Assembly: GCA_030431455.1 (NCBI GenBank)
Contig: JAUIJE010000002.1
Coordinates: 629,294-693,293, forward strand
Source of the DNA: a bacterium
GTDB taxonomy: Bacteria > Myxococcota > UBA727 > JAUIJE01
Direction of reading: 5' to 3'
Length of the DNA stretch: 64,000 nt
Below are positions 3,852-22,494 of the stretch, one piece after another. The notes below the pieces were generated by a model. It ran no database searches. It had not been told where the DNA came from and saw nothing but the letters and a program-made list of their open reading frames with translations. The position numbers and the translations under genes are program-made. Position 1 is the stretch's first letter. Each line of letters opens with the position of its first letter.

Positions 3852-3967
3852 GTGACCTCCGGTGGATGCCACAACATGCGCGATCGGCGACCCGGCCGCG
3901 ACCAAAGGCCCCCGAAACCATCTGTGGCCCCCCGCGACCTTGCGGTACCGCAGACCGCCCGCCGGGG

Positions 3968-4939: not shown

Positions 4940-5086
4940 CGTTCTCCCCTTCGATGTCGTGACAAGGTTGACCCTTCGTAATCATTCGTTCGATTCATTA
5001 CCAGGGCCTTGGTGGTCTCGGAGACATTCCCCTTTGTTTTCAGATACTTATGCTTGTGCGTGCCGTCACCGCGGCCGGTCGGCGCC

Positions 5087-5446
5087 TCACGCCTCGCGCG
5101 GCGGGGTCTTCATGTCCTCGAAGGACTCGAGCTCGCCGATCTCCCGGGCCACCGCCTCCTGGATCTTGGCCACCGCCGCCTCCGCGTCGACGAACTTCAA
5201 CCCCACCTCTTGGGGGCTCTGCCACGCCACCACCGCCTGGGCCGTGACCTCGCCGCCGCCGCCGGGCAAACGCACCTGGACCGACAACGCGTCGCCGTCG
5301 GACAGCGCGCTGTCGCCCCGCTCGACCCGGGCGCCCCCCGCGGACAAATCGCGGGTCGCGAGGGTGAAGCTCTTGTCCCCCTTGGTCACCCGCATCTCGC
5401 TCAAAAGCGGAATCCGCGGAAACTTTCGGCGCTCGTCCGCGCTCAT
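5087..5446 (-). CDS. PilZ domain protein
   Basis: A 119-residue single-domain protein. The c-di-GMP-binding signature of PilZ is visible: an arginine motif RRKFPR at residues 6-11 and DLSAGGAR at 33-40, followed by the small barrel strands (LSVQVRLPGGG, AQAVVAW, VGLKFVD). It ends in a charged helix. PilZ proteins bind c-di-GMP and switch motility, adhesion or secretion partners. ATG 5446 is preceded by GGGAGGG; an in-frame ATG at 5473 lies further out. It is divergent from the LamG lipoprotein gene, with 53 bases between the starts. Confidence 0.85.
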   Translation of the reverse strand: MSADERRKFPRIPLLSEMRVTKGDKSFTLATRDLSAGGARVERGDSALSDGDALSVQVRLPGGGGEVTAQAVVAWQSPQEVGLKFVDAEAAVAKIQEAVAREIGELESFEDMKTPPREA

Positions 5447-5499
5447 GCTGACCCTCCCCGACATGGACCACACGATGCTGTCGAGGGTATCTATACACC

Positions 5500-7071: not shown

Positions 7072-7121
7072 GCGGCCGGATGGGGCTCGACAAATTGATC
7101 TGAGTGATTCAGTCAGGCCCC

Positions 7122-8423
7122 ATGGCGAGCAAAAAGAAGACCGCGAAGAAGAAGACCGCGAAAAAGAAGTCCACGACCAAAAAGGCCGTGACCAAGAAAA
7201 AGACCGCGGGCAAGGCGGCGACCAAAAAGGCCACCGCCAAAAAAGCCACCAGCAAAAAGGCCACCACCAAGAAGGCCCCCGCGAAGACGGCGAAATCGGC
7301 GCGCAAGACCACCACCGGGGCGTCGGACAAGACCACCCTCGGGGCCATCGCCGACACCGCCTCGCGCATCCACACCACCATCCGGCGGCAAAAGGCCCCC
7401 GAGCTGGCCATGCCGGTGCGGTCGCTGTCCAATGTTCGCTACAACAAGAAGGTCGGCTTTTTCGAAATCGGGAAGAACAAAAAGATCCGTTCGCTCACCG
7501 TCAACACGGTGAAGACCTTCGCCCAGACGCTCAAGATGATGGCCCTGTCGCGCAACCTCGTGCAGGACAACGACTTCGCCACCAAACGGGACGCGTACTA
7601 CCAAAGCAAAAACTGGGGCGATGCGCGCTTCAAAGACCAGCCCGAGTCGGACACGGTGATGGACGACATCGAGGCGATGTTCTCCGTCGACGGGGTCTCG
7701 CGCGAACAGCTCCGGTTTGTGCCCGACCAGCACGGCGGGGCGGTGGCCGGCGCGCTCACCGTCATCGACCGGGACATGGAGACCGGCGAGCCCATCGAGA
7801 TCGATTGCACCCGCTTCGGCTCGGGCGCCTATTCCGTGCCAAGCTGGGTCGAGCACCTGCAGTTCAAGACCAAAGCGAAGTTCATTCTCTGCATCGAGAC
7901 CCAAGGGATGTTCCAGCGGCTGGCCAGTCACAAGTACTGGCAGCACGCCAACTGCATCCTCATCTCGATGGGGGGCGTGCCCACCCGGGCCTGTCGTCGG
8001 TTCGTGCGGATTCTGTCCGAGAGCGCCAAGATTCCCGTCTACGCGTTCACCGACTGCGACCCCTACGGAATCGCGAACATCTACCGGACCCTCAAGGTCG
8101 GCTCGGGCAACGCCGCGCACATCAACCAGTTCTTCTGTGTGCCCAACGCGACGTTCATGGGGCTGACCCCCTTCGACATCCAAGAGTTCGGCCTGTCCAA
8201 AGCCACCCACCCGCTGGGCAAAGAGGACATCAAGCGGGCCAATGACGCGCTCAAGAACGACCCGTTCTTCCAGAGCTATCCACAGTGGCAAAAAGCGATC
8301 AAGCACATGCTCAAGTCCGAGGTCCGCGCCGAACAGCAAGCCCTGTCGCTGCACGGTCTCAACTTCGTGCTCGAGGAGTACTTGCCCTACAAGCTCAAGA
8401 ACATCGACAAGTTCTTGCCCTGA
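7122..8423 (+). CDS. DNA topoisomerase VI subunit A / Spo11-like protein with histone-H1-like tail
   Basis: A 433-residue protein with two parts. Residues 1-68 are a Lys/Ala/Thr tail of KKT and KKAT units like bacterial H1-type histones. Residues about 75-433 are a Spo11/Top6A core: TKRDAYYQSKN holds the catalytic tyrosine (Tyr160 by alignment with Spo11 RD-YY motifs), and the Toprim metal site is Glu259 (CIETQGMF) with Asp311 and Asp313 (TDCDPYG). All catalytic residues are present, so DNA cleavage is possible. Topo VI works as A2B2 and needs the GHKL ATPase subunit B, which is not adjacent: the neighbours are a lipoprotein and queE. ATG 7122 is preferred to the in-frame GTG 7104, though neither has a strong ribosome site. 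Confidence 0.88.
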   Translation: MASKKKTAKKKTAKKKSTTKKAVTKKKTAGKAATKKATAKKATSKKATTKKAPAKTAKSARKTTTGASDKTTLGAIADTASRIHTTIRRQKAPELAMPVRSLSNVRYNKKVGFFEIGKNKKIRSLTVNTVKTFAQTLKMMALSRNLVQDNDFATKRDAYYQSKNWGDARFKDQPESDTVMDDIEAMFSVDGVSREQLRFVPDQHGGAVAGALTVIDRDMETGEPIEIDCTRFGSGAYSVPSWVEHLQFKTKAKFILCIETQGMFQRLASHKYWQHANCILISMGGVPTRACRRFVRILSESAKIPVYAFTDCDPYGIANIYRTLKVGSGNAAHINQFFCVPNATFMGLTPFDIQEFGLSKATHPLGKEDIKRANDALKNDPFFQSYPQWQKAIKHMLKSEVRAEQQALSLHGLNFVLEEYLPYKLKNIDKFLP

Positions 8424-8438
8424 GGGCTCGAGGACGGC

Positions 8439-9131
8439 GTGACCGCGACGGTGAAGCTGTCCGAGACGTTCTTTTCGTTGCAAGGCGAGGGGTCCCTGAC
8501 CGGGACCCCTTCCTATTTTGTGCGCACCACCGGCTGCAACCTGCGCTGCGCGTGGTGCGACACCCCCGAGACGAGCTGGGCCCCGGTGGGGCAGGACCGT
8601 TCGATCAGTGACATTGTAGCGGAGTACGGTTCGCGCCCGGACGTGCGCCACGTGGTGCTCACCGGGGGCGAGCCGCTCATCGCCCCCCGGGTGGAAGAGC
8701 TCGCCCGGGCCCTGAAGGACGCGGGCGCCCACCTCACCGTCGAGACCGCGGGCACGGTGGACAGAGACATTGTCGCGGACCTGTGGTCGATTTCGCCCAA
8801 GCTCGCGCACGCCACGCCCCACCACGACAAGAAGTGGGCGGTGCTGCACGAGGAGCGCCGGCTCGACGAGAATGTGCTGCGGGCCCTGATGGCGCGCGGG
8901 CCGCACCAGCTCAAGTTTGTGGTCGCGTCCGAAGCCGACCTCGACGAGGTCGACGCGCTGGTGGGCCGGCTCTCGGCCCGCCCCGACCTCGTGCAGCTCA
9001 TGCCCGAGGGAACGGACGCCGCCACCCTCGATGCGCGCGCCCCCTGGGTGGCCAAAGCGTGTCTGGCCCGCGGCTATCGGTTTTGCGATCGGCTGCACAT
9101 CCGCCTGTACGGCCACACCCGCGGCACCTAA
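8439..9131 (+). CDS. queE: 7-carboxy-7-deazaguanine synthase (radical SAM)
   Basis: A 230-residue radical SAM enzyme that converts 6-carboxytetrahydropterin to 7-carboxy-7-deazaguanine in the queuosine/preQ0 pathway. The cluster motif is CNLRCAWC with Cys33, Cys37 and Cys40. The N-terminal FFSLQGEGSLTGTPSYFVR is the typical QueE substrate-binding start, and VVLTGGEPL the SAM-binding GGE motif. It starts at GTG 8439, 15 bases after the Spo11-like gene, probably on the same transcript. Its pathway partner queC is at 36089-36781. The length fits short QueE proteins. Confidence 0.92.
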   Translation: MTATVKLSETFFSLQGEGSLTGTPSYFVRTTGCNLRCAWCDTPETSWAPVGQDRSISDIVAEYGSRPDVRHVVLTGGEPLIAPRVEELARALKDAGAHLTVETAGTVDRDIVADLWSISPKLAHATPHHDKKWAVLHEERRLDENVLRALMARGPHQLKFVVASEADLDEVDALVGRLSARPDLVQLMPEGTDAATLDARAPWVAKACLARGYRFCDRLHIRLYGHTRGT

Positions 9132-9204
9132 CGATCCACCTGGGCCAAGATCGGGTCTTCCCGCGTTCCCCTTGTGAGCGCCCCCTCACGTGCCTGGAGG
9201 CACC

Positions 9205-12200
9205 ATGACCGCCGAGTCCGATTCCCCCGCGAAGGCGGGGCGCTCCCCCTTGCCCGACGTGCCCCCCCGCGTGTGGGACGGCCGCCACGTCGAGCGAGAC
9301 CCGGCCACGGGGAATGTGCTCGTCGAGGGCACCTACCAAGCCGGCCTCAAACACGGGCGCTGGAAACGATACTGGCCCGCCGGCCAGCTGATGCAAGACT
9401 ATGCTTATGCACACGGCCTGCGCCACGGTCCCGAACGCGACTGGGCCGAAAACGGCACCCAGGTCTGCGAGGGCGAGAACCACCGGGGCAAACGCATCGG
9501 GACCTGGCAGTGGTGGCACGACAATGGTGCCAAGCGGTGCGCCCGGGTCTACGATGACAAGCATCGCCAACAGGGCCCGTTTGTGCACGACCACGCCGAC
9601 GGAACGCCCAAGGCCCGGGGCCAGTGGCTCGACGACAAACCGCACGGGGACTGGACCTGGTGGGACGAGCGCGGCTACGAAAAGCTCGAGCGTGGGTTTG
9701 CCCGGGGCACCTGGCACGGCGCGGAACGCGCGTGGTTCGCCGGGGGCGTGCTCGCGATCCAACGCACCTGGCGCGACGGGGAAAAACACGGCGAAGAAGA
9801 ACTCTACGATGCCACCGGCCGGCTCACGTTCCAAGGTGCGTGGTCCGATGGCTGCCCGGTGGGGGTTCATGTTCAGGTGGACGAAGACGGAAACGAGACC
9901 CGGACCGAACACGTGCACGGCATTGCCCTGGCTCGCGCCGAGGACGCCAAGCTCCGCCACAAGATCTTGAAAAAACTGAGCAAAGCCAAAGACGAATACG
10001 CTCAGGAAGAAGCGCTGGGGAACAACCTCGAGTACCAAGAAGACGGACGGTACCTGTACTTTCTATGGAAAGCCGGTCACCACGACGTGCCCGGCGATCC
10101 TGACCTGCATCGGTTGTTGGCGAAGGCCCACGGGCTGTTCAGCGGCGCGGACCTGGTGGCGTTTTTGACCGCGGCCGCGCCCGGCCGCCACGGGCCGATG
10201 CTCGAGACTTGGCCGCGCCACCTCGACGAGTTGGTGCTGCAGGTCTACGCGCGGGACCCTGGCCCCCTCGAGGCCGCGTACCCCAAGCTGCCCGCGCGGG
10301 TGCGCGATGGCCTCGACCTCGTGCGCATCCGGTTCGGGCGCGACATCGGGCCCGGGCTGCGCAAAAAGGGCCTCGCGGCGATGGCGAAAAAACACGCCAC
10401 CGGCCACGGCATCGCCGGGGCGTGTGGGTGGCCGGACGACGACGGGCGCATCGTCGAGCGGGCGCTGCTCGACCGCGACACCGGCGCCCCCACCGCGCAC
10501 TTCGAGGCCCTGCTCGCCCCCCTCGGGGGACTGCCCGCGTGGATCGAGGCCCTGCGCCCCTACGCCTTCCAAGAGGCGGCCCAGCGGGTGGGCCGGGTCG
10601 ACTTTCGCCACTTTCGCGACGTGGTGCGCACCGCCTCGGCGGAGGAGGCCGCGCGGCTCATCGACGCCATCACCCTCGACAACCTCGCGCCCGAACGCTT
10701 GCACCACGCGCTCACCGAGGTGCGCGACGACGACGTGGACACCACCGTACAGATCGCCCTCGCGGTGAAAAACACCGGCACGCACCGTTGGCCGGTGGTG
10801 TGCACCGCCCTGCTCCGCCTGGCCGAGGCCGGCCGGGAGCCGCCCGCGTCGCTGCTCGATCGGTTCGAGCTGACCGCGGGCTCGCCGAGCCACAGCTCGC
10901 AATGGATGACCGACCCCTTGCGCTGGTTCGACGAGGCCGCGCAACACGACCCCGCGTTTCGGCTGCACTACATCGACCGCGACGTGGGGGCGGCGGTGCC
11001 GAGCACGCGCTTGCAGCACCTGGCCATGCGCAGCCTGTCCCCCGCCGCGCGCCGCGCGGTGATCAAAAAGCGCCTCGGCGACCAGCCCATCAACGGCTAC
11101 GCCACCCAGTGGTTCTATTTGCTCGACGACGACGCCATCTGGCAACGGGCGATCGAAGCCGCCGCAGGCCAATTTTCGCGCAATCACGACATGGCGGTGT
11201 ACGGCCTTGGCGAGCTTGGCACAAAAGCGTTGCCGGCGTTGGTCGAGCAGGTGGAAAAGGCACCGCCCGACCAAAAAGAGGCCTGGTCCAAGGCGGTGCT
11301 GGTCGCGCTGGCGCGGGCCACGGTCGACGACGGCGGATTTGATGCTGCCCATGACCGGCACGTGCGGTTTGATGCCATCGGCGAAGACCACAAGCATCAG
11401 TACTACACCGTGTTTTATGAGCGTGTGCTGTACGGGCTGCCGCGGGCGCGTGCCGCCGCCGTCCTGTTGAACGGCCTGCGCGGCGACGCCTTCACCCGCG
11501 CGTTTGCCATGATCGGCGCCGCCCCCCTCCCCGATGTGTTGGAGGTCGCGTTCGGGAGGCTGCTCGACGAGGAAGACAAGCTGAAGCACGAGGAGCAGCA
11601 GCGGGTGCGCACGGGTCTTTGCAGTCTCGGCGACGCGCGGCCCTACGTGCGGTGGATCCTGCAACAGGGCGCGGGCGGGGGCATCCACGGCGTGCTGCGG
11701 GACGCGGTGGGCGGGCAAGTCTTCGAGCAGATCCAGAAGGATTGTGCGGCGGCGGGACAGGCCCCCGCCCGCGCCCTGGACCACATCGAAAAGCTCCGCC
11801 GGCGGGCGGCGGCGGAAGGCGGGGGAGGGACGACACTGTACTTCCTGCGCCCCCGCGAGGCGCCGGCGGAAGGATACAATGTGATTGGGGGTCCCGCCCC
11901 CGGGGTGGACGCGACCCGGTGGCCCCGGCGCGACGACGAGCCCATGGCCCACCTGTTGACGCTGGATGTCACCACCGTGCCCGGCATCGCCGCGTTGGTG
12001 CCGAAAGACGCGCGAACGGTGTCGGTGTTCTGTGCCCAGCCCTCGATGAACGAGGCGTGGGAGCCGATGAACGACTACACCCAGGTGGTGTTCAGCACCG
12101 AGGCCGAGCTCGCGGCCCAGCCCGCGCCTCCCGAGGATCTCGACGAGGTCAGCGACGTCATCGAGCCCGGCTCGTTTGAGGTGGTGGCGATCGAGATGCC

Positions 12201-12399
12201 GGCGTCGCCGAGCCGCGACCTCGGCCTCGAGGTGTACCGGGCGAGCGCGCGGGTGGCGGGGGCGCCGATCTGGTTGCAGGACGACGAGGGCGGCGGGCAG
12301 TTCTTGATGCAGTTCGACGAGGGCTTCATCCCGATGAACCTGGGCGACGCCGGCGTGATGTACGTCTTCGACAACACCGCCTTCTGGCAATGCCATTAG
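9205..12399 (+). CDS. Large YwqK-repeat / DUF1963 (YwqG-like) fusion protein
   Basis: A 1064-residue soluble protein without a signal peptide. Residues about 20-240 are repeats of the YwqK/MORN-like type (GTYQAGLKHGRWKRYWPAGQ, GTWQWWHDNGAKR, GDWTWWDERG and more). A long, mostly helical middle part (about 250-850) has no recognised domain, though its VYGLGELGTKALPALVEQ stretch is HEAT-like. The last 190 residues resemble DUF1963/YwqG: LLTLDVTTVPG, GAPIWLQDDEGGGQFLMQFD and DAGVMYVFDN. In Bacillus, ywqG and ywqK belong to one toxin-immunity locus; here both types lie in one chain. The ATG at 9205 follows GGAGG, unlike the in-frame GTG at 9190. The role is unknown; a polymorphic-toxin immunity ancestry is inference. 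Confidence 0.75.
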   Translation: MTAESDSPAKAGRSPLPDVPPRVWDGRHVERDPATGNVLVEGTYQAGLKHGRWKRYWPAGQLMQDYAYAHGLRHGPERDWAENGTQVCEGENHRGKRIGTWQWWHDNGAKRCARVYDDKHRQQGPFVHDHADGTPKARGQWLDDKPHGDWTWWDERGYEKLERGFARGTWHGAERAWFAGGVLAIQRTWRDGEKHGEEELYDATGRLTFQGAWSDGCPVGVHVQVDEDGNETRTEHVHGIALARAEDAKLRHKILKKLSKAKDEYAQEEALGNNLEYQEDGRYLYFLWKAGHHDVPGDPDLHRLLAKAHGLFSGADLVAFLTAAAPGRHGPMLETWPRHLDELVLQVYARDPGPLEAAYPKLPARVRDGLDLVRIRFGRDIGPGLRKKGLAAMAKKHATGHGIAGACGWPDDDGRIVERALLDRDTGAPTAHFEALLAPLGGLPAWIEALRPYAFQEAAQRVGRVDFRHFRDVVRTASAEEAARLIDAITLDNLAPERLHHALTEVRDDDVDTTVQIALAVKNTGTHRWPVVCTALLRLAEAGREPPASLLDRFELTAGSPSHSSQWMTDPLRWFDEAAQHDPAFRLHYIDRDVGAAVPSTRLQHLAMRSLSPAARRAVIKKRLGDQPINGYATQWFYLLDDDAIWQRAIEAAAGQFSRNHDMAVYGLGELGTKALPALVEQVEKAPPDQKEAWSKAVLVALARATVDDGGFDAAHDRHVRFDAIGEDHKHQYYTVFYERVLYGLPRARAAAVLLNGLRGDAFTRAFAMIGAAPLPDVLEVAFGRLLDEEDKLKHEEQQRVRTGLCSLGDARPYVRWILQQGAGGGIHGVLRDAVGGQVFEQIQKDCAAAGQAPARALDHIEKLRRRAAAEGGGGTTLYFLRPREAPAEGYNVIGGPAPGVDATRWPRRDDEPMAHLLTLDVTTVPGIAALVPKDARTVSVFCAQPSMNEAWEPMNDYTQVVFSTEAELAAQPAPPEDLDEVSDVIEPGSFEVVAIEMPASPSRDLGLEVYRASARVAGAPIWLQDDEGGGQFLMQFDEGFIPMNLGDAGVMYVFDNTAFWQCH

Positions 12400-12400
12400 A

Positions 12401-12424
12401 GCGCATCTTTGATTTGAGATGCGC
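12401..12424 (+). terminator. Perfect 8-bp hairpin after the YwqK/DUF1963 gene
   Basis: GCGCATCT at 12401-12408 pairs perfectly with AGATGCGC at 12417-12424 around an 8-base AT-rich loop, starting two bases after the stop codon. There is no T tract, so it may be a stop or 3'-stability hairpin rather than an intrinsic terminator. Confidence 0.45.
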
Positions 12425-12492
12425 CAGGTGCGCTCTCGTGTCTCCCACCGGACAGACGGGCGGGGCGGCCGGTCTTGGGGCATCATGGGGGC

Positions 12493-14148
12493 ATGCGCGG
12501 GGTGCTGGCCTTGTTGATGCTGCCGGGTGGGCTGGTCGTTGGGAGCGGCTGTGACGCGGTCTGCGAGGGCGACTTCGTGGTGGAGACCCAGGCCGACCTG
12601 AACGCGCTGGCCGGGTGCGTCGAGGTGGATGGCAACCTGGAGATCACCAGCGCCGAGCGGACCTTGACCCTGGAGAGCCTGCGGGGGCTCGAGCGGGTAT
12701 CGGGCCGGATGCGCATCGCGGGCACCGCCCTGCGCGATCTCTCCGACCTGAAGCAGCTCCGGGAGGTCGGCGGCCCGTTGGACATCTACAACAACTCGTT
12801 CTTGGAGAGCGTCACCGGGCTGTACGGCTTGCAACGTGCAGGGGCATTGTCACTGGAAGACAACCCGCCGATATCGGTGATCCGCGGGTTCGACTCGCTG
12901 GTCGAGGTGGGCGCGCTCCGCATTCAGGGCAACCGCGACCTCCGGCGGGTTTGGGGATTCAACAGTTTGGCCCGCGCCACCGGCCCCCTCCACATCGATG
13001 TAAAAGGTGACATCCAGGGCTTCAACCGGCTCGAATCCACCCTGGGGTCGGTCACGCTCACGGGGCGAGACCGGTCGACGACCCCCAACCGCATCGACGG
13101 CTTTGCCCAGTTGCGTTCCCTGGGCGAGGACCCCACCTCGGTGCTGTCGCTGTCCGCGGAGTCCATCGCGGGATTTGATCACCTGGGCCCCGACTGGGGG
13201 CACGGGCTGCGGGTGTCCGCGTTCCACGTCGAGGGCTTGCCCGACATCGAGACCGTGGCCGGCGACGTCGAGATCGAAGTGTTCGCCCGGCGCACGCCGG
13301 AAGCCGAGCCCCCCGAGCCGTGGGACGCCCTCGGTTTTGTGCAGAGCTGGCGCGCGGTGGGCGGTGACCTGGTGGTGGGGGGCGCGGGGCTCACCTCCTT
13401 GGCCTACTTCGGCGCGCTCGAGTCCGTGGGCGGTGAGCTCGACGTCGGGGGGGCGTTCGGCTTCAGCGACGTCGGCGGCTTCTTTGCGCTCGCCGAGGCG
13501 CGGGGCATCACGCTGCGGGTCGGGCCCGAGGCCGCCCACCTCTACGGGTTCGAAGCGTTGCAGCACACCGGCGAGCTCGCCATCGTGCCCCCGCCTGACG
13601 TCGACGCGGGGCGGCTCGAGACCATCACCGGGTTTGATCAGCTGCACACCGTCGACGGCCCCCTGGTGTTCCGCGACCTCCCGGGGCTGACCCGCATCAC
13701 CGGGTTTTCGTCGCTGACCTCGGTGGGGCAAGCCCATCCCGACGACGCCGCCCTCGGGTCCCTGTACCTGCATGGCCTGCCCGCGCTCTCCACCATCGAG
13801 GCGTTCGGCGCGTTGCGCACGGTGGCCCACACCCTCAACCTCTACCACCTCGCGCCGACCCAGCTGCCCCGGTGGGCCGATCTCGAGGTGCGCCACCTGT
13901 TCATCGTGGACCTCCCGGTGACGGCGTTGCGGGACTGGCCGTCGATGGTCACCCTCGACTCCTTGACCCTTCGCAACAATTCCGCGCTCTACGGTCTCGG
14001 CCTCGCCGGCCTGGTGACCGTCACCGGCCGGGTCGAAATCACCAACAACCCGTCGCTGTCGTGCGCCGACGCCATGGACTTGGTGCAAGCCCTGAGCGCG
14101 CCCCCTGCCGAGGTGCTCGTCGACAACAACCTCGGCGCTTGCTTTTAG
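12493..14148 (+). CDS. Receptor-L-domain-like repeat lipoprotein, paralog 1 of 3
   Basis: A 551-residue lipoprotein (lipobox VGSGC) composed of repeats of the receptor-L/leucine-rich type seen in EGF and insulin receptor ectodomains. After the anchor comes a module with CEGDF and the phrase LAGCVEVDGNLEI; then units such as LREVGGPLDIYNNS, LVEVGALRIQGN and LHTVDGPLVFRDL recur about every 23-25 residues. It closes with SCADAMDLVQ and a final DNNLGACF. It is probably exposed on the outer membrane and elongated, a binding rather than catalytic protein. It shares layout with the next two genes on the same strand. ATG 12493 is used because the hydrophobic segment begins there. Confidence 0.75.
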   Translation: MRGVLALLMLPGGLVVGSGCDAVCEGDFVVETQADLNALAGCVEVDGNLEITSAERTLTLESLRGLERVSGRMRIAGTALRDLSDLKQLREVGGPLDIYNNSFLESVTGLYGLQRAGALSLEDNPPISVIRGFDSLVEVGALRIQGNRDLRRVWGFNSLARATGPLHIDVKGDIQGFNRLESTLGSVTLTGRDRSTTPNRIDGFAQLRSLGEDPTSVLSLSAESIAGFDHLGPDWGHGLRVSAFHVEGLPDIETVAGDVEIEVFARRTPEAEPPEPWDALGFVQSWRAVGGDLVVGGAGLTSLAYFGALESVGGELDVGGAFGFSDVGGFFALAEARGITLRVGPEAAHLYGFEALQHTGELAIVPPPDVDAGRLETITGFDQLHTVDGPLVFRDLPGLTRITGFSSLTSVGQAHPDDAALGSLYLHGLPALSTIEAFGALRTVAHTLNLYHLAPTQLPRWADLEVRHLFIVDLPVTALRDWPSMVTLDSLTLRNNSALYGLGLAGLVTVTGRVEITNNPSLSCADAMDLVQALSAPPAEVLVDNNLGACF

Positions 14149-14262
14149 TGTCCAGCGACGAGACGCCCGATCGGGCGCTCGTCGTGGCCTTGGCGAGCGC
14201 AGATCCGCGTCGCGGTTCGGAAACCTCCAAGCTCCCCGCGCGTGGTGGAGCGGGAGGTGGAC

Positions 14263-15951
14263 ATGGACAAACGCGTGGCGCGCACCGTTTGGGCAATCGG
14301 TGTGATCAGCTTCAGCGCCGGGTGCGGCAAGGCCATCTGTTTGGACGACATGTTGGTCGAGGACCGCACGGGCATGGCGGAGCTCAGCGGTTGTCGGGAG
14401 GTCCGGGGCGACGTCGAACTCGCGGGCGCGTACGTTTGGACCACCTCGGGGCTGTTCGATCTGGAGCGCATCGACGGGGACCTGCGCATTCACGACACGA
14501 ACATCGAGGTCCTCGACGGGCTCGAGCGCCTGGCCCACGTGGCCGGGGTCATCGACATCCACAACAACACATCCCTCGAGACCCTCGCGTCGTTCGACGA
14601 CCTCGAAGGCGCCGGGGGTCTGTACATCGAGTCCAACCACCGCCTGACCCGCATTCCCGGGTTCCCGACGCTGACCAACCTCGGTGGGCTCGTCATCCGC
14701 GACAACCTCGAGCTCCACCACGTCGGCGGGTTCGACGCGCTCGAGAGCATGGCCGGGCCGCTCCACATCGAACTCCACGGGCACATCGATGGCTTTTCAC
14801 AGTTGTTGTTCATCGACGGCGACCTCACCCTCCGAACCCGCGGCGACCCCGGCCTCGCCGGCGAAGAGGAAGCCTCCAACCAGCCCACCACCATCTCCGG
14901 GTTCGATTCGTTCTGGGGCGCCGCCTCGCCCGGCTTTGCCCTCGCCTGGGACACCGACGTGCTCACCGGGTTTGATTGGTTGGGCCCCGACCTCAGCGCG
15001 GACCTCATCGTGCACGCCTCCGCGGTGACCGGCCTCACCCGCGTGTCCACCGTTGAGGGCAGCGTGACCATCGACGCATCGCCCGGCGAGGGCTCGACGG
15101 TCGCGGGCGATGGGGACGCCTTCGGTTGGACCACGAACCTGCGCGCGGTGACCGGGGCGCTGGTGGTCGACGGGCCCATCCCCGGGGACGCCTTCGCTCG
15201 CCTCGTCGTCGTCGGCGACCTGTCCCTCGGGACCAACACCCCGGTGCGCACCGCGGGGCGTTGGCCCTCGCTCACCACCGCCGGATCCATCGACATTGTG
15301 CTGCAAGACAACGCCGCCGACCTCTCCGGCTTCTCTCAGTTGTCCACCGCCCACGCGCTGACCATCCGCACGTCCTCGACCTCCCCCCAGGCCGGCCCCG
15401 CGCGCCTGCTCGGCTTTGACGCCCTCACGTCCCTGGAACGAGGTCTCACCGTCGTCGGTCTGCACCGGCTCACCGAGCTTGGCGCGTTTGGCGCCCTCAC
15501 CACCGTAGGCGCGGGGGGCGGAACCTTCTCGCCGCACGCCGAGGGCGCGTCGGTGGTGCTCCGTGACCTCCCGTTCCTCAGCGCCCTCGACGGCTTGCGG
15601 CAGTTGACCTCGGTGCCGCACGCCCTCCGCCTCGATCACGTCGGCTTGGCATCATTCCCGCCCTGGTCCGACCTCACCGTCACCCACACCATCGAGGTCG
15701 CGGGGGTGGCCGCGACCGCCCTGCCCACGTTGCCCCGCACCACATCGCTGCGAGAGCTCATCATCCGCGAGAACCCGGCGCTCATCGAGCTGGGCCTCAC
15801 CCACGTCGACAGCGTGCCCGGTCGCATCGAAATCTGGGCCAACCCGGCGCTGCCCTGTGCCACCGCCGCATCGTACGTGAACCGACTGCTCACGCCGCCG
15901 GCGTTCTTGATCCTCGAGGACAACCTCAACCCGTGCCCGTGGCCGCGCTGA
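14263..15951 (+). CDS. Receptor-L-domain-like repeat lipoprotein, paralog 2 of 3
   Basis: A 562-residue lipoprotein (lipobox SFSAGC) with the same plan as its neighbours: an N-terminal module with two Cys (KAICLDDM, LSGCREVRGDVEL), then repeats with signature phrases such as LAHVAGVIDIHNNTSLETL, LEGAGGLYIESNHRLTRI and LTNLGGLVIRDNLELHHV, and a C-terminal cap with PALPCATAASYVN. A middle segment (about 190-330) departs from regular repeat spacing, as in paralogs 1 and 3. The ATG has an excellent GGGAGG site upstream. The gap to paralog 1 is about 115 bases. The function is unknown; ligand or cell-surface recognition is inference. Confidence 0.75.
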   Translation: MDKRVARTVWAIGVISFSAGCGKAICLDDMLVEDRTGMAELSGCREVRGDVELAGAYVWTTSGLFDLERIDGDLRIHDTNIEVLDGLERLAHVAGVIDIHNNTSLETLASFDDLEGAGGLYIESNHRLTRIPGFPTLTNLGGLVIRDNLELHHVGGFDALESMAGPLHIELHGHIDGFSQLLFIDGDLTLRTRGDPGLAGEEEASNQPTTISGFDSFWGAASPGFALAWDTDVLTGFDWLGPDLSADLIVHASAVTGLTRVSTVEGSVTIDASPGEGSTVAGDGDAFGWTTNLRAVTGALVVDGPIPGDAFARLVVVGDLSLGTNTPVRTAGRWPSLTTAGSIDIVLQDNAADLSGFSQLSTAHALTIRTSSTSPQAGPARLLGFDALTSLERGLTVVGLHRLTELGAFGALTTVGAGGGTFSPHAEGASVVLRDLPFLSALDGLRQLTSVPHALRLDHVGLASFPPWSDLTVTHTIEVAGVAATALPTLPRTTSLRELIIRENPALIELGLTHVDSVPGRIEIWANPALPCATAASYVNRLLTPPAFLILEDNLNPCPWPR

Positions 15952-16015
15952 TCTGCGCACAGGAAACCCGCGCGTCCCCGGTGCATGGCGTCAGAGAACC
16001 ATGAGGGGCAAATAC

Positions 16016-17686
16016 ATGAAAATGAAACTGAACATGATTCCGCCGCTGGCCTGGCTCGGGGTGCTGGCCGCGGCGGTGGGCTGTGGCGAAGTGTGCGAAG
16101 GCAACTACGTCATCACCGACGCGCTGGAGCTGGCCCACATGAGCGGCTGCCGTGAAGTCACCGGCGATCTGGAGATCCGGGTGTCGGGGAACGTCGAGGC
16201 GCCCATCGACCTCTACGCCCTGCGCGAAGTGGGGGGCCACTTCGTGCTCGCGGCCAGCTCGTTCGAACGTCTCACCGGCCTGGAAGGGCTCACCGACGTC
16301 GGGGGCCGGGTGCTCATCCACCACAACCCAGGTCTGAACCACCTCGACGAGCTCGCCGGCCTGCGCACCGCGCGGCACCTGGCCATCGAGGACAATGGGT
16401 TCTTGGTCCGGGTCGACGGCTTTGACCAACTGCGGACCACCGGAGACCTGCTCATCCGCAACAACCCAAATCTGAAGCGGGTGTCCGGGTTTGCGCGCCT
16501 GGCCCAGACCACGGGAAAGGTCGTGATCGAGGCGGGCGAGACCATCGAGGGATTTGGGCAGCTCGCGCGCACAGATGGGTCAGTGACATTGTGGGCCAAC
16601 GCGCGCCCCAATATCGACGAGGACAGCGTGACCGGCTTTTCACAGTTGCGGTCGTTGGGCGACGACCCGGCGGCTGAGCTCCGCATCGTGACCGCGCAGG
16701 TGGACGGCTTTGACGCGTTGGGGCCGGACTGGGGCCACGGCTTGCACGTGCAGGCCCAGCGCGTCCTGGGGCTGGAGGGCCTCGAGACCGTGGCCGGCAG
16801 CGCCTACGTCGAACTCACCGTGCCGACCAACCAAGCGCGCGACGCCCGGGCCGGCCTGTTCTTCGCCGACACCTTGCGGGAGGTCGGCGGCGACTTGATC
16901 ATCCGCGGGCCGCCGGACCTGGACCTCACCCCGTTCAACCAGGTCGAGCGGGTGGGGGGCCAGATTCAACTGGGGGGCGGCACCGGCATCGACGCGCCGG
17001 GGCGATGGCCCGCCCTCATCACCGCCGGGTCGTTGGTGATCAACGTCAGCGAGCGCGCCGGACCCATCGAGGGGTTCTACCTGCTGGAGCACCTCGGCGC
17101 GCTCACCATCCGGCCGTTCGAAGGCGCGGCCCCGGCGGACCTCACGTCGATCGAAGGCTTCAACGCGTTGGCGGTCGTCGACGGGTTGATGCGCATCTCG
17201 CACTTGCCCGCGCTCGAACGCATCGACGGGTTCTGGTCGCTGGTGTCGGTGGGGGCGCAACACCCCGACGAGTCCGAAAAGGGCAGCCTGTGGTTGCGCT
17301 TTTTGCCCGCGCTTAAAGTCCTCGCGGGGATGACCCAGCTTCAGCGGGTGGGCCACACCCTGTCGCTGCGGGACCTGGGGTTGGTCGAGCTGCCCGCCTG
17401 GCCGGCGCTGTCGGTGGGCACGCTCACCGTACAGCACACCGAGGTGGCGGCGTTGCCCGCCTGGCCGGCGATGACGCAGTTGGATTCGTTGTCGGTCGGC
17501 TACAACCCCCAGCTCTCGTCGCTGGGCTTGTCCGGTCTGCAGGCGGTGACCACGGAGGTGCAGGTGGTGCAAAACCCCGTGCTGTCGTGTGACGACGTCG
17601 AGGCGCTCCTCGACGGCTTCACCGGCGCCCCGGCCGAGACCTACGTGTCGTCCAACCAGGACGGTTGCGTGGTCTTTCCCCCGTGA
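16016..17686 (+). CDS. Receptor-L-domain-like repeat lipoprotein, paralog 3 of 3
   Basis: A 556-residue lipoprotein (lipobox AAVGC) that again opens with CEGNYVITDALELAHMSGCREVTGDLEI, matching paralogs 1 and 2 nearly phrase for phrase. Units such as LREVGGHFVLAASSF, LTDVGGRVLIHHN and LRTTGDLLIRNNPNLKRV define the repeat. It closes with LSCDDVEALLDGF and a terminal Cys near VSSNQDGC. ATG 16016 is preferred to the in-frame codon at 16001 because GAGGGG lies seven bases before it. It is the last of the tandem; the next gene is convergent, 28 bases away. Confidence 0.75.
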   Translation: MKMKLNMIPPLAWLGVLAAAVGCGEVCEGNYVITDALELAHMSGCREVTGDLEIRVSGNVEAPIDLYALREVGGHFVLAASSFERLTGLEGLTDVGGRVLIHHNPGLNHLDELAGLRTARHLAIEDNGFLVRVDGFDQLRTTGDLLIRNNPNLKRVSGFARLAQTTGKVVIEAGETIEGFGQLARTDGSVTLWANARPNIDEDSVTGFSQLRSLGDDPAAELRIVTAQVDGFDALGPDWGHGLHVQAQRVLGLEGLETVAGSAYVELTVPTNQARDARAGLFFADTLREVGGDLIIRGPPDLDLTPFNQVERVGGQIQLGGGTGIDAPGRWPALITAGSLVINVSERAGPIEGFYLLEHLGALTIRPFEGAAPADLTSIEGFNALAVVDGLMRISHLPALERIDGFWSLVSVGAQHPDESEKGSLWLRFLPALKVLAGMTQLQRVGHTLSLRDLGLVELPAWPALSVGTLTVQHTEVAALPAWPAMTQLDSLSVGYNPQLSSLGLSGLQAVTTEVQVVQNPVLSCDDVEALLDGFTGAPAETYVSSNQDGCVVFPP

Positions 17687-17714
17687 GATGTGCGGGGGCC
17701 GGGCGCGACCCCGG

Positions 17715-18680
17715 CTACAGCACGCTGGGGTCGAGCACGCCGAGGCCGATCAACAAGAACACCACCCACAAGGTCAAGGCCGCGGCCCCGGTGAGCAGCG
17801 CCGCGGCCAAGGGCAGCAGGCTCGTCGAGGTCGGCGCGTCCACGGTCTTGCCGTAGGCGCGCAAAGACAGGCCAAAGGGGTGCAAGGCGGCGGGGGCCTG
17901 GTCCTGTTTTTCCAATGTGATGGCATCGTGGTAGAGCATCACCGTGCCGAGGGCCAAGCCGATGGGGAGCACGTTGGCGGGGGCGGTGAGCAGGGCGTTG
18001 AGCACGCTCTCCGCTGGGCCGAGCCCGAGGGTGTCGGGGAAAAACCACCCGTAGGCCATGAACCCGAGCTGGGTGAGCCCGAGGTAGCAGACATAGGTGG
18101 TGAAGCCGTAGGCGAGGACCTTGCCGGTGCCGAGGCGCTTGACCAGCTCGGTGCTGCGGGAGAGCGCGGCCGACGACGATTGGCCTTCGTACAGGACCAC
18201 GGGGATCACCAGGCTGTAGCGCGCGAGCAGGATGAACCCGGGCACGAGCAGCAACAAAAAGCCGAGGCCGGTCATGATGCCGGCGATGAGCAGCGGCCCG
18301 ACGGTCTTGACCCAGGCTTTGACCCCGGCGGAGAACGCCTCGCCCGGGCCGATGTCCTGGCCCTGGCCGAGGCGCATCGACGCGGCCACCGCGGTGGTGA
18401 GCAAGGCGGTGCCGAGGGTGAACTGAAAGAGACGTTCGATCTTGTTCGTCACGTTCAGCGCTTGGAGGTCACCGCCCAAATTGGTGACAAGCAGGTCGAG
18501 CACAAAGTCGAACGGCAACCACGCGAGCACCGGCAGGGCCACGAACACCACCGGGTGGCGGCGCAACACCGTCCACACATCGCGGTGCAGCTCCGCCAGC
18601 GAGCGGGGACCGTGGAGCGTGTACAGGCCGGCCCCCACACCGGCGGACGAGGGGAGCGGATTGTGGGCGTCGGTGGACAT
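17715..18680 (-). CDS. Polytopic membrane protein, glycerophosphodiester-phosphodiesterase membrane-domain/YciC-like
   Basis: A 321-residue integral membrane protein with about six to seven hydrophobic segments (for example residues 43-66, 85-105, 130-160, 195-215, 230-255 and 285-312). The stretch GLGFLLLLVPGFILLARYSLVIPVVLYEGQSSSAALSRS is the landmark of the YciC/DUF7847 and GdpD-membrane-domain group, whose molecular role is unknown. The N-terminus is cytoplasmic and polar. It is transcribed towards the receptor-L cluster, convergently, and its start lies about 60 bases from the end of the GIDE-like gene on the same strand, so the two may share a transcript. Confidence 0.7.
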   Translation of the reverse strand: MSTDAHNPLPSSAGVGAGLYTLHGPRSLAELHRDVWTVLRRHPVVFVALPVLAWLPFDFVLDLLVTNLGGDLQALNVTNKIERLFQFTLGTALLTTAVAASMRLGQGQDIGPGEAFSAGVKAWVKTVGPLLIAGIMTGLGFLLLLVPGFILLARYSLVIPVVLYEGQSSSAALSRSTELVKRLGTGKVLAYGFTTYVCYLGLTQLGFMAYGWFFPDTLGLGPAESVLNALLTAPANVLPIGLALGTVMLYHDAITLEKQDQAPAALHPFGLSLRAYGKTVDAPTSTSLLPLAAALLTGAAALTLWVVFLLIGLGVLDPSVL

Positions 18681-18743
18681 GCGGACCTCGCAACCAAACA
18701 GGACCGGTGCAGCCTAGCGCATTCGTCCGCGGGGGGCGGCCGA

Positions 18744-19490
18744 TCACCGCCCGTGGCGGTAGACCGCCCACTGCAGCAGCGCGAACCCGACCACGACGAC
18801 GACCGCGGCCACCGCCCAGGCGATGGCCTTGAGCCGGTACCGGCGGGCCACCCGGGTCTCGCCGCGATCGCTGACCAAAAACAGCGGGTCTCCGTGGGCA
18901 AAGCGCGGCAGCTCGCGCCGGCGGGTGTACGGACCGAGCACGTACAGCTCGTCACCCTCTTCCAGCACGGTCTCGGTGGCGCGCAGGGTCTTGTTCAGCA
19001 AAAGCCCTTTGTGGCTCTGTCCGTACCGCGCCATCAAATCTTCAAAGTCGTTGGCCCCCCCGGTGAACACGCCCTGTCGCGCTTTGCTGTCGCGGTCGAG
19101 CAAGATGCGCGCTTCGCGGATCGCGACCTCGGCCTCGCCGCTGCCGTCGCGGATCACAAAATCCCCCGATCGGGTGTCGTCGACGACCTTGACCCACTTT
19201 CGTCGGCGGGTGCTGCCGTTGCTGCGGTATTGGCGCACCGTCTTTTGCTGCTCGATGACCAGGCGATGGTACACGCAGGGGGTGCCCGCCAAGGGGCTGG
19301 TCAACAGCGCCCCCCGGGCACGGATGCGCCCTTTGACCTCGGCGAAGCCTTGGGCGCCGAGTCGTCCTATGGGGCTGGTCTCGGTGTCCTCCACCAACCG
19401 GTAGCGCCCCCAGGCCTTGCGGCCAAACGTCGCCGCCCCAAACGCCAGCATCGTGCCCACCCCGGTGACAAGCACAAAGAACAACGCCAT
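18744..19490 (-). CDS. Membrane protein with a GIDE-like (MUL1/E3-ligase-associated) domain
   Basis: A 248-residue protein with a membrane segment at each end (about residues 2-20 and 222-240) and a soluble domain between. That domain reads like the GIDE module of eukaryotic MUL1/MAPL and its bacterial relatives: LLTSPLAGTPCVYHRLVIEQ at about 62-81, GDFVIRDGSGEAEVAI at about 109-124 and EGDELYVLGPY at about 178-188. There is no RING finger, so ligase activity is not implied. Bacterial members are of unknown function at the inner membrane. AAGAGG sits upstream of ATG 19490; an in-frame TTG at 19496 is possible. Confidence 0.65.
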   Translation of the reverse strand: MALFFVLVTGVGTMLAFGAATFGRKAWGRYRLVEDTETSPIGRLGAQGFAEVKGRIRARGALLTSPLAGTPCVYHRLVIEQQKTVRQYRSNGSTRRRKWVKVVDDTRSGDFVIRDGSGEAEVAIREARILLDRDSKARQGVFTGGANDFEDLMARYGQSHKGLLLNKTLRATETVLEEGDELYVLGPYTRRRELPRFAHGDPLFLVSDRGETRVARRYRLKAIAWAVAAVVVVVGFALLQWAVYRHGR

Positions 19491-19757
19491 CAACAAACCC
19501 CCTCTTGGTACATCGGAATAGACTGTGAATAGCGGTGGCGTCCGGTCCCGACGTGAACCTGGTCAGGGGGCCGCGTCGCCACGGGAAGGCCCCCGGGCCC
19601 GATCTTGGCAGACCCGGGTGAGCGCGGGCGCCCCGCAGCCACCGCCACCGCACAAGCGCCGGCCGAGAACGACCATGGCCCAGCCCTCGAATGCCAAGCA
19701 AGGCACGCTCGTCACAGCGCGCAAGGTGATCCACACGCCAGGCGCCGGGCGCCACGC
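19491..19757. other. Non-coding spacer between divergent genes
   Basis: About 270 bases with no convincing gene. It holds a short self-complementary stretch (GGCGCCGGGCGCC near 19741) and otherwise nothing recognised, leading into the promoter of the pilin-like lipoprotein gene. Confidence 0.5.
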
Positions 19758-19786
19758 TTGGTGCGACGCCGTCGCCGTGCTACATC
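19758..19786 (+). promoter_or_regulatory. Candidate sigma-70 promoter of the pilin-like lipoprotein gene
   Basis: TTGGTG at 19758-19763, a 17-base spacer, then TACATC at 19781-19786 preceded by TGC, an extended -10. The predicted start, near 19793, leaves a 16-base leader holding GGGAG before ATG 19809. It is a pattern match only. Confidence 0.4.
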
Positions 19787-19808
19787 CGCGCCCACCCGGG
19801 AGTTTGTC

Positions 19809-20186
19809 ATGCTCAAATCGCTGGTTGTTTGTTCGCTGTTTGCCCTCGTGGTCGTCGGCTGCTCCACGCCGCAAAAAGTGGCCGAACGCGCGGTGGACTA
19901 CGGCAAGTGCCGGGCCCTGCAGGGGGAAGCCCAGACCGCGTTGCGCGCGATCCACGCCGCCCAGGCCAATCAGAAAGCCGCCCGGGACACCTACGCCAAT
20001 ACCATTGGGGACCTGGGCATCGACGTCGAGGAGCAGCTTCCGCACTACAGCATCAAGCTGGTGACGGTGACCGAGACGCGCTTTGTGGCCGAGGCCAAGG
20101 GCACCCACGACGCCAACAAAGGCGACACCTGGCGGGTCAACGAAAAGGGTGACATCGACAACACCCGCGACGGCTGCAAGCAGTAA
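19809..20186 (+). CDS. Small lipoprotein with a type IV pilin-like globular domain
   Basis: A 125-residue lipoprotein with signal ending VVVGC (Cys18). After an Ala-rich helix (AQTALRAIHAAQANQKAARDTYANTIGDLGID, residues about 41-72) come strands and a close resembling minor pilins: HYSIKLVTVTETRFVAEAKG, then DTWRVNEKGDIDNTRDGC with a terminal Cys. That order (long helix, Tyr-rich middle, TW..NEKG, final Cys) is that of pilin C-terminal domains, but a lipobox replaces the prepilin peptide. It lies 341 bases upstream of the type II secretion operon and ends in its own terminator. The pilin resemblance is by eye and needs a structural check. Confidence 0.6.
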   Translation: MLKSLVVCSLFALVVVGCSTPQKVAERAVDYGKCRALQGEAQTALRAIHAAQANQKAARDTYANTIGDLGIDVEEQLPHYSIKLVTVTETRFVAEAKGTHDANKGDTWRVNEKGDIDNTRDGCKQ

Positions 20187-20231
20187 CATTTTCGAGGCCT
20201 GCGCGGCGGGGCGCGGGTGATCGCGGCGCTG

Positions 20232-20259
20232 CGCCCCCGGGCGCGGGGGCGGCGTTTTT
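20232..20259 (+). terminator. Intrinsic terminator after the pilin-like lipoprotein gene
   Basis: CGCCCCC at 20232-20238 pairs with GGGGGCG at 20245-20251 around a 6-base loop, followed after three bases by five Ts at 20255-20259. It lies 45 bases after the stop codon and separates this gene from the gsp operon. Confidence 0.65.
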
Positions 20260-20527
20260 GTGCGCCCGGGCGCGGATCTGGGGACCGTTTTTTTCCCGGG
20301 CGGCGGACGGGGTGGCACGCCCGGGGCCCGGCAGACCGCCTGCGGCGCGCGCGGTTGCCAAAATGACAACGCCCCGGGGCGCGCGCGGCCGGCCGGGTCA
20401 AAATGGCACGGATGAGGCCCCGGCGCGGGGTCTATGTCCTTGAGAACGCGGACATTTTTCGGAATGTTGAAGCCGGAAACGACGGTTGTCGGGCAGGGGC
20501 TCGACCCCGGCAACCCAGGGAGACGAC
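20260..20527. other. Leader region of the type II secretion operon
   Basis: About 270 non-coding bases, very GC-rich at the left end and less so near gspC. Two promoter candidates are present. One is sigma-54-like: TGGCACG at 20404-20410 with GC at 20417-20418, giving the required GG-N10-GC spacing but a poor -12 box. The other is sigma-70-like: TTGAGA at 20440-20445, 17 bases, AATGTT at 20463-20468. AGGGAG lies five bases before the gspC start. Confidence 0.4.
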
Positions 20528-21673
20528 GTGCCGATTCTCGAAGCGCTGTTCAAACGACATTTCTGGACGGTGCACGCCGCGGGTCTGGCCGCGGTGGCGT
20601 TTCTGGCCGCCCAGGCGACCACCCACGCGGCCGGCCAGTACATCGAGGGCAAGCTCGCCGAGCAGGCCGACCAAGGCAAAAAGGGCCGCAGCTTCGCCCC
20701 GACGTCGTCGAGCGAGATGCGCAACTTCAACGACGCCAGCGAGCAGAACATCTTCGACGGCAAGCGGGAAGAGCCGGTGGTGGCGGGGGGCCCGCAGGCC
20801 TGCCGCTCCAACGCCGAGTGTCCCGAGGGCAGCGTGTGCCGGGACAACCCCGACGAGAGCGAGGACGGCCCCGAGAAAGTGTGCCAAGCCGACACCGAGT
20901 TGCCCGCGGGCGACGTCGACTGCACCGCGGCCCCGGTGTCCTCGACGTCGATGCAGCTGGTGGGCACCGCCGTGTTCGAGCACCAAGAAGACTCCCTGGC
21001 CTCGATCATCGACGCCGGCGCGGGCCGGGGCGCGGAGGCGGAGATCTACTCCATCAACGAGTGCGTGGAGGTGCCCGAGGCCCCCGAGGGCGACGTCGAG
21101 CACGAGAACAACTTCCTGTCCAAGCCCCCGCCCTGCCGCGAGCTCCCCGGTGGCCACCGCCTGGTCCAGATCGGGGTCGAGGACGTCTGCATCATCAACA
21201 CCGAAGAGAACCGTTACGAGCGCGTGACCCTCGAGGAGCCGCCCAAGGACGCCCCCAAAGTGGCGAGCGCGCCCAAGCCCAAGACCAAACGCAAGGGCAA
21301 GAGCAACGAGTTCACCGACGAGATCGCCGAGGGCATCTCCAAGACCGGGCCCAACAGCTACGAGGTCAAACAAGAATCTGTGAACAGCGCGCTGGGCAAT
21401 CTCAGCAAGCTCGCCACCCAGGCCCGCATCGTGCCCGCGTTCGAAGGGGGCGAGGCCATCGGGTTCAAGCTGTTCTCGATCCGGCCGGGCTCGTTGTATT
21501 CGAAGATCGGCATCCAGAACGGGGACGTGATCCAGAAGGTCAACGGCTACGACCTCAACAGCCCCGACAAAGCCCTTGAGCTGTACCAGAAGCTCAAGGA
21601 CGGCAAAGAGTTTTCCGTGGACATCAAACGCCGGGGCAAGCCGGTGACCCTCGACTACAGGATTGCGCAATGA
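20528..21673 (+). CDS. gspC: Type II secretion inner-membrane protein GspC with Cys-rich insertion
   Basis: A 381-residue protein that links the inner-membrane platform to the secretin. It has a single transmembrane helix at about 13-32, a homology-region (HR) domain beginning near residue 143 (MQLVGTAVFEHQEDSLASI) and a C-terminal PDZ domain at about 300-375 (AIGFKLFSIRPGSLYSKIGIQNGDVIQKVNG). Between helix and HR lies an unusual cassette with Cys92, 98, 104, 119 and 132, patterned like the small disulfide knots of myxobacterial surface proteins; Cys179, 203 and 221 follow. The GTG at 20528 is chosen for its AGGGAG site. It is the first gene of the operon and overlaps the next by four bases. 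Confidence 0.88.
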   Translation: MPILEALFKRHFWTVHAAGLAAVAFLAAQATTHAAGQYIEGKLAEQADQGKKGRSFAPTSSSEMRNFNDASEQNIFDGKREEPVVAGGPQACRSNAECPEGSVCRDNPDESEDGPEKVCQADTELPAGDVDCTAAPVSSTSMQLVGTAVFEHQEDSLASIIDAGAGRGAEAEIYSINECVEVPEAPEGDVEHENNFLSKPPPCRELPGGHRLVQIGVEDVCIINTEENRYERVTLEEPPKDAPKVASAPKPKTKRKGKSNEFTDEIAEGISKTGPNSYEVKQESVNSALGNLSKLATQARIVPAFEGGEAIGFKLFSIRPGSLYSKIGIQNGDVIQKVNGYDLNSPDKALELYQKLKDGKEFSVDIKRRGKPVTLDYRIAQ

Positions 21674-22449
21674 GTGTGACTGAAAAGGCGATGTTGGCCC
21701 GTGGCATCGGGCTGCCCGTGGTGGTGGCCCTGTCGTGGCTCGTGTTCCCGGTGTGGCTCGGCCTCGCGGTGATGGCCCCGGACGACGCCACCGTCGACGT
21801 GCGCGCCGACGGCAACGGCGCGTTCGAGCCGGTGGGCTTCGGCTGGCGGGTGCGCCATTTCGACGGCGAGGACGGGGAGCTGGCCAAGGTCCGCGGGCTG
21901 GCCAAGGGCGACATCGTGGTCGCGGTGAACGAACACCGGGCCATCGCGTCCGAACAAGAGCTGTTCGCGCTGCTGTCGCTGCCCGCCACCGCGGCCCCCG
22001 CGGTTCACGAGACCACCTGCGGCGGGTCCTGGAGCGGCGGCTTGGCGGTGGACGTGTACCGGGACGGCAAGGCTCTGCGCCTGCTGTCCGTCGAGCACGA
22101 CAACGGCGTGACCTCGGTGATCGAGGTGCGCAGCCCCCACGAGGCCGACGACGCCGACACCACCCACCACGGCGCGAAGTTCGTGCTGGTGGGGGTCGAG
22201 GGCCGGCCCGGTCATGCCTATGCATTGTATGACCTGGTCGCGGGCTCGCTGTTCGAGCGAGCCGGGGTCCGGGCCGGGGACGTGCTCCTCGAGCTCGCGG
22301 GCCACGACGTGACCACCGGCGGCCTGCACCGGGCGCTGCACCGGGCCGAGCACCGCGAGGCGGGGGACATGCGGATCCTGCGCGACGGGATCGAACAAGA
22401 ACTGACCTGGGCGGCGGCCGGCGCCGACGACGTGGTCGCCCCCGAATAG
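21670..22449 (+). CDS. Inner-membrane PDZ-domain protein in the type II secretion operon
   Basis: A 259-residue protein with one transmembrane segment at about 12-36 and two PDZ-like modules outside: one near 50-105 (GFGWRVRHFDGEDGELAKVRGLAKGDIVVAVNEH) and one near 175-255 (YALYDLVAGSLFERAGVRAGDVLLELAGHDV). It overlaps gspC by four bases (ATGA). The topology copies GspC without an HR domain, so it may be a second GspC-like connector or a chaperone for substrates. It is not one of the named core gsp genes. The name cannot be given with confidence. Confidence 0.8.
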   Translation: MSVTEKAMLARGIGLPVVVALSWLVFPVWLGLAVMAPDDATVDVRADGNGAFEPVGFGWRVRHFDGEDGELAKVRGLAKGDIVVAVNEHRAIASEQELFALLSLPATAAPAVHETTCGGSWSGGLAVDVYRDGKALRLLSVEHDNGVTSVIEVRSPHEADDADTTHHGAKFVLVGVEGRPGHAYALYDLVAGSLFERAGVRAGDVLLELAGHDVTTGGLHRALHRAEHREAGDMRILRDGIEQELTWAAAGADDVVAPE

Positions 22450-22494
22450 GTCTACGAATTCACTGGCATTGATTTTGGCTCCACCGAGCAGAGG

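Follow-up and report, generated by a model that had tools for sequence, protein, structure and literature searches.

Receptor L domains are known chiefly as hormone-binding modules of animal receptors, which raises the question of what three tandem genes for L-domain-like putative lipoproteins are doing in a bacterium of the phylum Myxococcota. The genes lie at positions 12493-17686 of a 64,000-nucleotide stretch of contig JAUIJE010000002.1 (assembly GCA_030431455.1), called the window below. By sequence profile and predicted fold, the first ~150 residues of their products are a true receptor L domain (PF01030), and the domain is predicted to continue into a much longer solenoid. The features are listed below in window coordinates; P0001, P0002 and P0003 are the products of genes 1, 2 and 3, in that order.

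12493-14148, plus strand: gene 1 (P0001), 551 residues, putative lipoprotein with an elongated receptor-L-domain solenoid
12550-12552, plus strand: C20 of P0001, lipobox cysteine (GSGC), the lipobox assigned by reading of the sequence
12553-13083, plus strand: residues 21-197 of P0001, N-terminal L domain folded separately, predicted local distance difference test score (pLDDT) 95.5
12562-12618, plus strand: N-cap cysteine pair C24/C42 of P0001, span given by the outer bases of the pair's codons, putative disulfide
14062-14142, plus strand: C-cap cysteine pair C524/C550 of P0001, with helix 524-533, putative disulfide
14263-15951, plus strand: gene 2 (P0002), 562 residues, paralogue, cysteines 21, 26, 44, 532 and 558
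16016-17686, plus strand: gene 3 (P0003), 556 residues, paralogue, cysteines 23, 27, 45, 525 and 551

The start codons of the three genes are our choice, as alternative in-frame starts are present. Codon-position G+C is coding-like, with a third-position value of ~0.90 in all three genes, and the intergenic gaps of 114 and 64 bases are compatible with a single transcript for the trio. Each product has a short hydrophobic leader followed by GSGC20 (P0001), SAGC21 (P0002) or AVGC23 (P0003). These motifs, judged by eye, are lipobox-like, so that all three proteins combine a signal peptide with a lipobox cysteine and are probably lipidated. P0001 contains exactly five cysteines (C20, C24, C42, C524 and C550). 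The same number, with no others, aligns across the three proteins as the lipobox cysteine, an N-cap pair and a C-cap pair. The N-cap cysteines are 18 residues apart in all three proteins and the pair near the C terminus 26 residues apart. Only four or five residues, without a spacer, separate the lipid cysteine from the first N-cap cysteine. An earlier sequence-only reading had described an adjacent trio sharing a lipobox, a cysteine pair, receptor-L-type repeats and a cysteine-containing cap, and the five aligned cysteines, together with PF01030 matches in 3/3 proteins, bear this out. In a crude self-similarity test the strongest lag is 23-24 residues, with identities of 0.131, 0.113 and 0.120 for P0001, P0002 and P0003 against maxima over 200 shuffles of 0.121, 0.124 and 0.114, and P0002 thus does not rise above its own shuffle maximum.

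All three proteins score above the Pfam gathering threshold for PF01030 (Recep_L_domain), with expect values (E) of 9.5e-11, 7.8e-5 and 1.5e-8 and bit scores of 42.3, 23.2 and 35.2 for P0001, P0002 and P0003, compared with a cut-off of 21.8. For P0002 the leucine-rich-repeat (LRR) family LRR_EndoS gives a better E of 5.5e-6, yet falls below its own cut-off (27.0 versus 27.9 bits). Apart from PF01030, LRR_EndoS is the only Pfam domain found in the three proteins at E<=1; neither a catalytic or signalling domain nor a peptidoglycan-binding domain was found by Pfam in any of them. An alignment of 14 N-terminal family segments (A2) extends the observation to the wider family, as 14/14 rows match PF01030 at E<=0.01 and 10/14 rows have two or more cysteines within the first 34 residues. 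When a profile of A2 was searched against the PDB, 159 sequences matched at E<=0.01; among the best 60 of these, an internalin ranks first (9.7e-16), followed by insulin receptor (2.3e-13), EGFR (7.4e-13) and ErbB2 (1e-12).

Residues 21-197 of P0001 were also folded alone, giving the confident model listed above. In a Foldseek search of the PDB, chains of insulin receptor, IGF1R or HER3 account for 14/14 of its matches at E<=0.001. With VIA-align, the N-terminal model superimposes on insulin receptor (2hr7_A) with a Z score of 13.7 over 132 residues at 2.3 Å and 25% identity, and on the insulin-receptor-related receptor (7tyj_A) over 129 residues at 2.1 Å and 26% identity. For internalin B the values are Z 12.2-12.7 over 163-167 residues at 3.8-4.1 Å and 17% identity. 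The Z scores of the L domains and internalin B are therefore close, and it is the root mean square deviation (rmsd) and identity that favor the L domain for the predicted structure.

Structure prediction of full-length P0001 with AlphaFold2, using a three-row alignment, resulted in a single continuous solenoid with a mean pLDDT of 87.3 and a predicted template modelling score of 0.85. The only segment below a pLDDT of 50 is the leader, residues 1-20. A solenoid had been anticipated from the sequence, and the outcome that would have spoken against it, a prediction with no solenoid, did not occur. About 20 main strands were counted over residues 22-544 in the DSSP listing of this model. Metazoan L domains consist of roughly 6 coils in ~150-200 residues, with cysteine-pinned caps at both ends; the coil number of the trio, ~20, is thus not the ~6 expected for an L domain, although profile and fold still hold N-terminally. 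When the whole P0001 model was submitted to Foldseek, TLR8, SHOC2, LGR4 and internalin A were among the first matches, with insulin receptor chains also listed, and VIA-align placed SHOC2, YopM and the TSH receptor at the top. The longest of the whole-model LRR alignments carry a high rmsd. By length alone, the P0001 model looks like a generic LRR rod.

These comparisons allow a plainer interpretation, in which the proteins are ordinary canonical LRR lipoproteins of the internalin or BspA-like type and the receptor-L label is merely a cross-match. The whole-model matches to LRR proteins, the first rank of internalin with the A2 profile and the better LRR_EndoS match of P0002 all fit this. We nevertheless consider it unlikely, because sequence and the N-terminal fold decide for the L domain. 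PF01030 is above cut-off in 3/3 proteins, the N-terminal model retrieves insulin receptor, IGF1R and HER3 in 14/14 matches at E<=0.001, the best L-domain superpositions are closer (2.1-2.3 Å, 25-26%) than those of internalin B (3.8-4.1 Å, 17%), and the 18-residue spacing of the N-cap cysteines is kept in 3/3.

P0002 and P0003 align with P0001 collinearly over their full length at 35% and 40% identity, and with each other at 33%. Pairwise nucleotide identity among the trio is 48-54%. Since identity at third codon positions is no more than 42-51%, the duplication is old. The sequences thus support an origin of the trio by duplication long ago, in line with the earlier proposal that the genes had been duplicated. 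No sign of recent gene conversion between the copies was seen, the best 30-codon window having 68% nucleotide identity.

The trio belongs to a larger family in its own genome. A window-derived profile gave 24 matches there at E<=1e-5, and a PF01030 search added one. Grouping of overlapping matches, which is our own, yields the trio and 14 further genes with L-type repeats, all located elsewhere in the genome. The 18-19 kb flanking each side of the window gave no further L-domain frame at E<=1e-4. A simple lipobox rule is passed by 12/14 siblings, and one more (L053) is lipoprotein-like by eye, giving 13/14. The remaining sibling, L067 (G000:C11, around 309479-309856), has L-type repeats without a leader or cysteine, unlike the other 13, and its product is perhaps cytoplasmic. 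Stretches of (GD/GE)n occur some distance behind the lipobox in 6/14 siblings and in none of the three window proteins. Gly-Asp dipeptides run for 56 to 98 residues between lipobox and L domain in L050, L054 and L055 (G000:C16, C12 and C3), and these stretches look like surface stalks.

Among relatives, 17 of 58 genomes contain a match to the window-derived profile at E<=1e-10, the window's own genome being counted in both numbers. The strict PF01030 model matched in 20/193 genomes of the phylum. Of the control genomes, Bacteroides ihuae gave a PF01030 match in the own-genome search, and 0/14 controls matched in the 193-genome search. A set of small genomes (0.3-1.8 Mb) from another family of the same order (G005, G007, G009 and G011-G015) has an L-domain match in 0/8. 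With a whole-length profile at E<=1e-20, the three window genes were the only full-length matches in 195 phylum genomes, and the best outside matches spanned ~150 residues. BLAST, however, aligned P0001 with a 561-residue frame from a relative in another family (L071, genome G126), covering 545 columns at 28% identity (E 5.6e-21); this frame is without the first N-cap cysteine. A search for orthologues in genome contigs by peptide patterns (P0001; alignment A1) found no relative. A second relative, also of another family, has three L-domain lipoprotein genes of its own side by side (L072, positions 3314-10165 of G057:C1:7942000-7957000), in which repeated Cys- and Asp-rich stalk units precede the L domain in each protein. 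Tandem L-domain lipoproteins are therefore recurrent, not unique to the window.

Compared with known systems, the trio proteins share with the L domains of the insulin receptor, IGF1R and ErbB the sequence profile, the predicted fold of the first ~130 residues and a cysteine pair at each cap. They differ in having ~20 rather than roughly 6 coils and an N-terminal lipid anchor. They are also without the furin-like Cys-rich region of an insulin- or EGF-type receptor, having five cysteines in all, and without a transmembrane or kinase part, so that the architecture of an L1 - Cys-rich - L2 ectodomain with transmembrane and kinase parts was not found. Other PF01030-type lipoproteins, in this genome and elsewhere in the phylum, such as L071 and the L072 trio, have the lipobox, L-type repeats and C-cap cysteines in common with the window proteins, and differ in the spacers or Cys-containing stalk repeats that separate lipid from L domain. 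Listeria internalins and Leptospira LRR proteins are likewise right-handed repeat solenoids, many of them secreted or surface binders; internalin B differs in its poorer agreement with the N-terminal model. Ecm33 of fungi, which is glycosylphosphatidylinositol-anchored, differs in being eukaryotic. It resembles the trio in that Ecm33 proteins, found in the cell wall, have motifs resembling the receptor L domain (PMC5872309).

The genes around the trio are of mixed character. Upstream are genes for a MORN_2 protein, a Radical_SAM protein (Pfam) that we take to be QueE-like, a topoisomerase VI A subunit/Spo11-like protein and a Laminin_G_3/DUF2341 protein. The Spo11-like protein (7122-8420, plus strand; PF21180, 2e-56) has a Lys/Ala-rich N-terminal tail. 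Two open reading frames considered as candidates for a topoisomerase VI B subunit, 861-2579 and 3245-4978, gave no Pfam match. A hairpin was read from the intergenic sequence that separates gene 1 from the MORN_2 gene:

12401-12424, plus strand: hairpin GCGCATCT-TTGATTTG-AGATGCGC, intergenic, not among the scanned terminator-like sites

This hairpin suggests that the MORN_2 gene is a transcriptional unit apart from the trio, which is therefore probably a unit of its own. Within 9000-19600, a promoter scan returned 0 sites and no operon evidence was found. The same interval contains 15 terminator-like sites against 5.9 expected, mostly intragenic, from which no inference was drawn. Downstream, two opposite-strand genes (17715-19496) lie between the trio and a type II secretion cluster. 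One of them (18747-19496, minus strand) encodes a GIDE-family protein that carries, in a bacterium, a Pfam E3 ubiquitin ligase annotation (3e-10). The cluster itself (19722-28231, plus strand) encodes PDZ proteins, the GspD secretin, GspE and GspF, the last three at 22495-28231. One further protein of the cluster has weak, below-cut-off matches to type IV pilin-like families.

The best explanation of the trio, which we hold with about even confidence, is that each protein is a lipid-anchored L-domain solenoid, a rod that passively mediates binding or adhesion. The predicted fold, the L-domain membership, the cysteines and the old duplication are established from sequence and models; we infer the disulfides, lipidation, membrane attachment, exposure and binding. 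Cleavage by signal peptidase II would fall immediately ahead of the lipobox cysteine, whose lipid would tether the protein to a membrane at a distance of four or five residues from the first N-cap cysteine, without any spacer. The remainder would form a single right-handed solenoid of ~20 coils, made up of the L domain, the Cys-pinned caps and many more coils between, with its lipid end at the membrane and the far cap pointing away. One face of the stacked coils could then contact a protein or glycan, and the three copies, long separated, may have different or additive partners. Ligand binding or adhesion is the likeliest role; comparable solenoids such as the Leptospira LRR proteins bind ligands, namely glycosaminoglycans and integrins (PMC11629876).

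Several observations weigh against this explanation. The neighboring genes point to no pathway. The whole-length model is at least as similar to generic LRR proteins as to L domains, and a Listeria internalin (9.7e-16) is, among the matches listed, the best PDB sequence match of the A2 profile. The residue at position +2 of the lipobox cysteine is Asp in P0001 and Gly in P0002 and P0003. In E. coli, +2 Asp is an inner-membrane lipoprotein signal, retention in the inner membrane of M. xanthus is signalled by +2 Lys, and PulA relies on +2 Asp prior to type II export (PMC3222651). By analogy P0001, with its +2 Asp, may sit in the inner membrane, with sorting rules varying by species. Finally, the sequence-only reading had supposed that the exposed repeat face was diversified among the copies, and the result went in the opposite direction. 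Strand-exposed polar columns are more conserved, with 20.5% pairwise identity (n=88), than other polar columns (12.5%, n=149; p=0.0096); the test used a crude grouping of residues (DSSP strand with hydrophobic majority, all strand faces pooled, three old paralogues). With earlier, uneven column sets, no difference in face conservation among the paralogues was seen. This is weak evidence against hypervariability of the exposed strand face in the trio.

The same data bear on other roles. A periplasmic envelope scaffold, in which the lipid-anchored solenoids bind peptidoglycan or a complex of the envelope and do nothing outside the cell, would suit the direct junction of lipid and N-cap, which contrasts with the (GD/GE)n stretches of 6/14 siblings, as well as the +2 Asp of P0001 and the conserved exposed strand positions. 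No Pfam peptidoglycan-binding domain accompanies these features, however, and many relatives of the fold act outside cells; we regard a scaffold as possible but doubtful. It had also been proposed that the proteins are recognition receptors for kin or prey outside the outer membrane, duplicated into copies with diversified binding faces. Surface solenoids are often ligand binders, the three copies have diverged and a tandem L-domain lipoprotein trio exists in another genome too. Yet variability is not highest at the exposed strand positions and nothing links the locus to predation or kin discrimination, which makes this role unlikely. It is less probable still, and in our view very unlikely, that the trio proteins are substrates or partners of the downstream type II secretion system (GspD, GspE and GspF), carried by it to the surface. 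The gene neighborhood brings that system to mind, and the +2 Asp of P0001 recalls PulA (PMC3222651), but two opposite-strand genes intervene, +2 Asp is present in 1/3 proteins and the 14 siblings are encoded at other places in the genome.

Pfam searches find bacterial members of the established family PF01030, and the kind of protein described here is already known; what varies is its form, a tandem trio of lipoproteins that are elongated, capped at both ends and free of a spacer. The open-licence PMC literature yielded no paper on receptor-L lipoproteins of bacteria, which is not proof of absence, and the family seems little studied in bacteria. A bolder interpretation, which is speculative and rather unlikely, is that the phylum holds a large undescribed class of lipid-anchored L-domain receptors with freely variable coil number, perhaps near the source of the eukaryotic module, and that the trio are long receptors with different partners. 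As judged by sequence and predicted fold, L-domain lipoproteins are common in one bacterial phylum, where the module appears in tandem arrays and varies widely in its number of coils. Proteins of the trio type may therefore serve as tractable models for L-domain binding in bacteria and for the evolution of the module.

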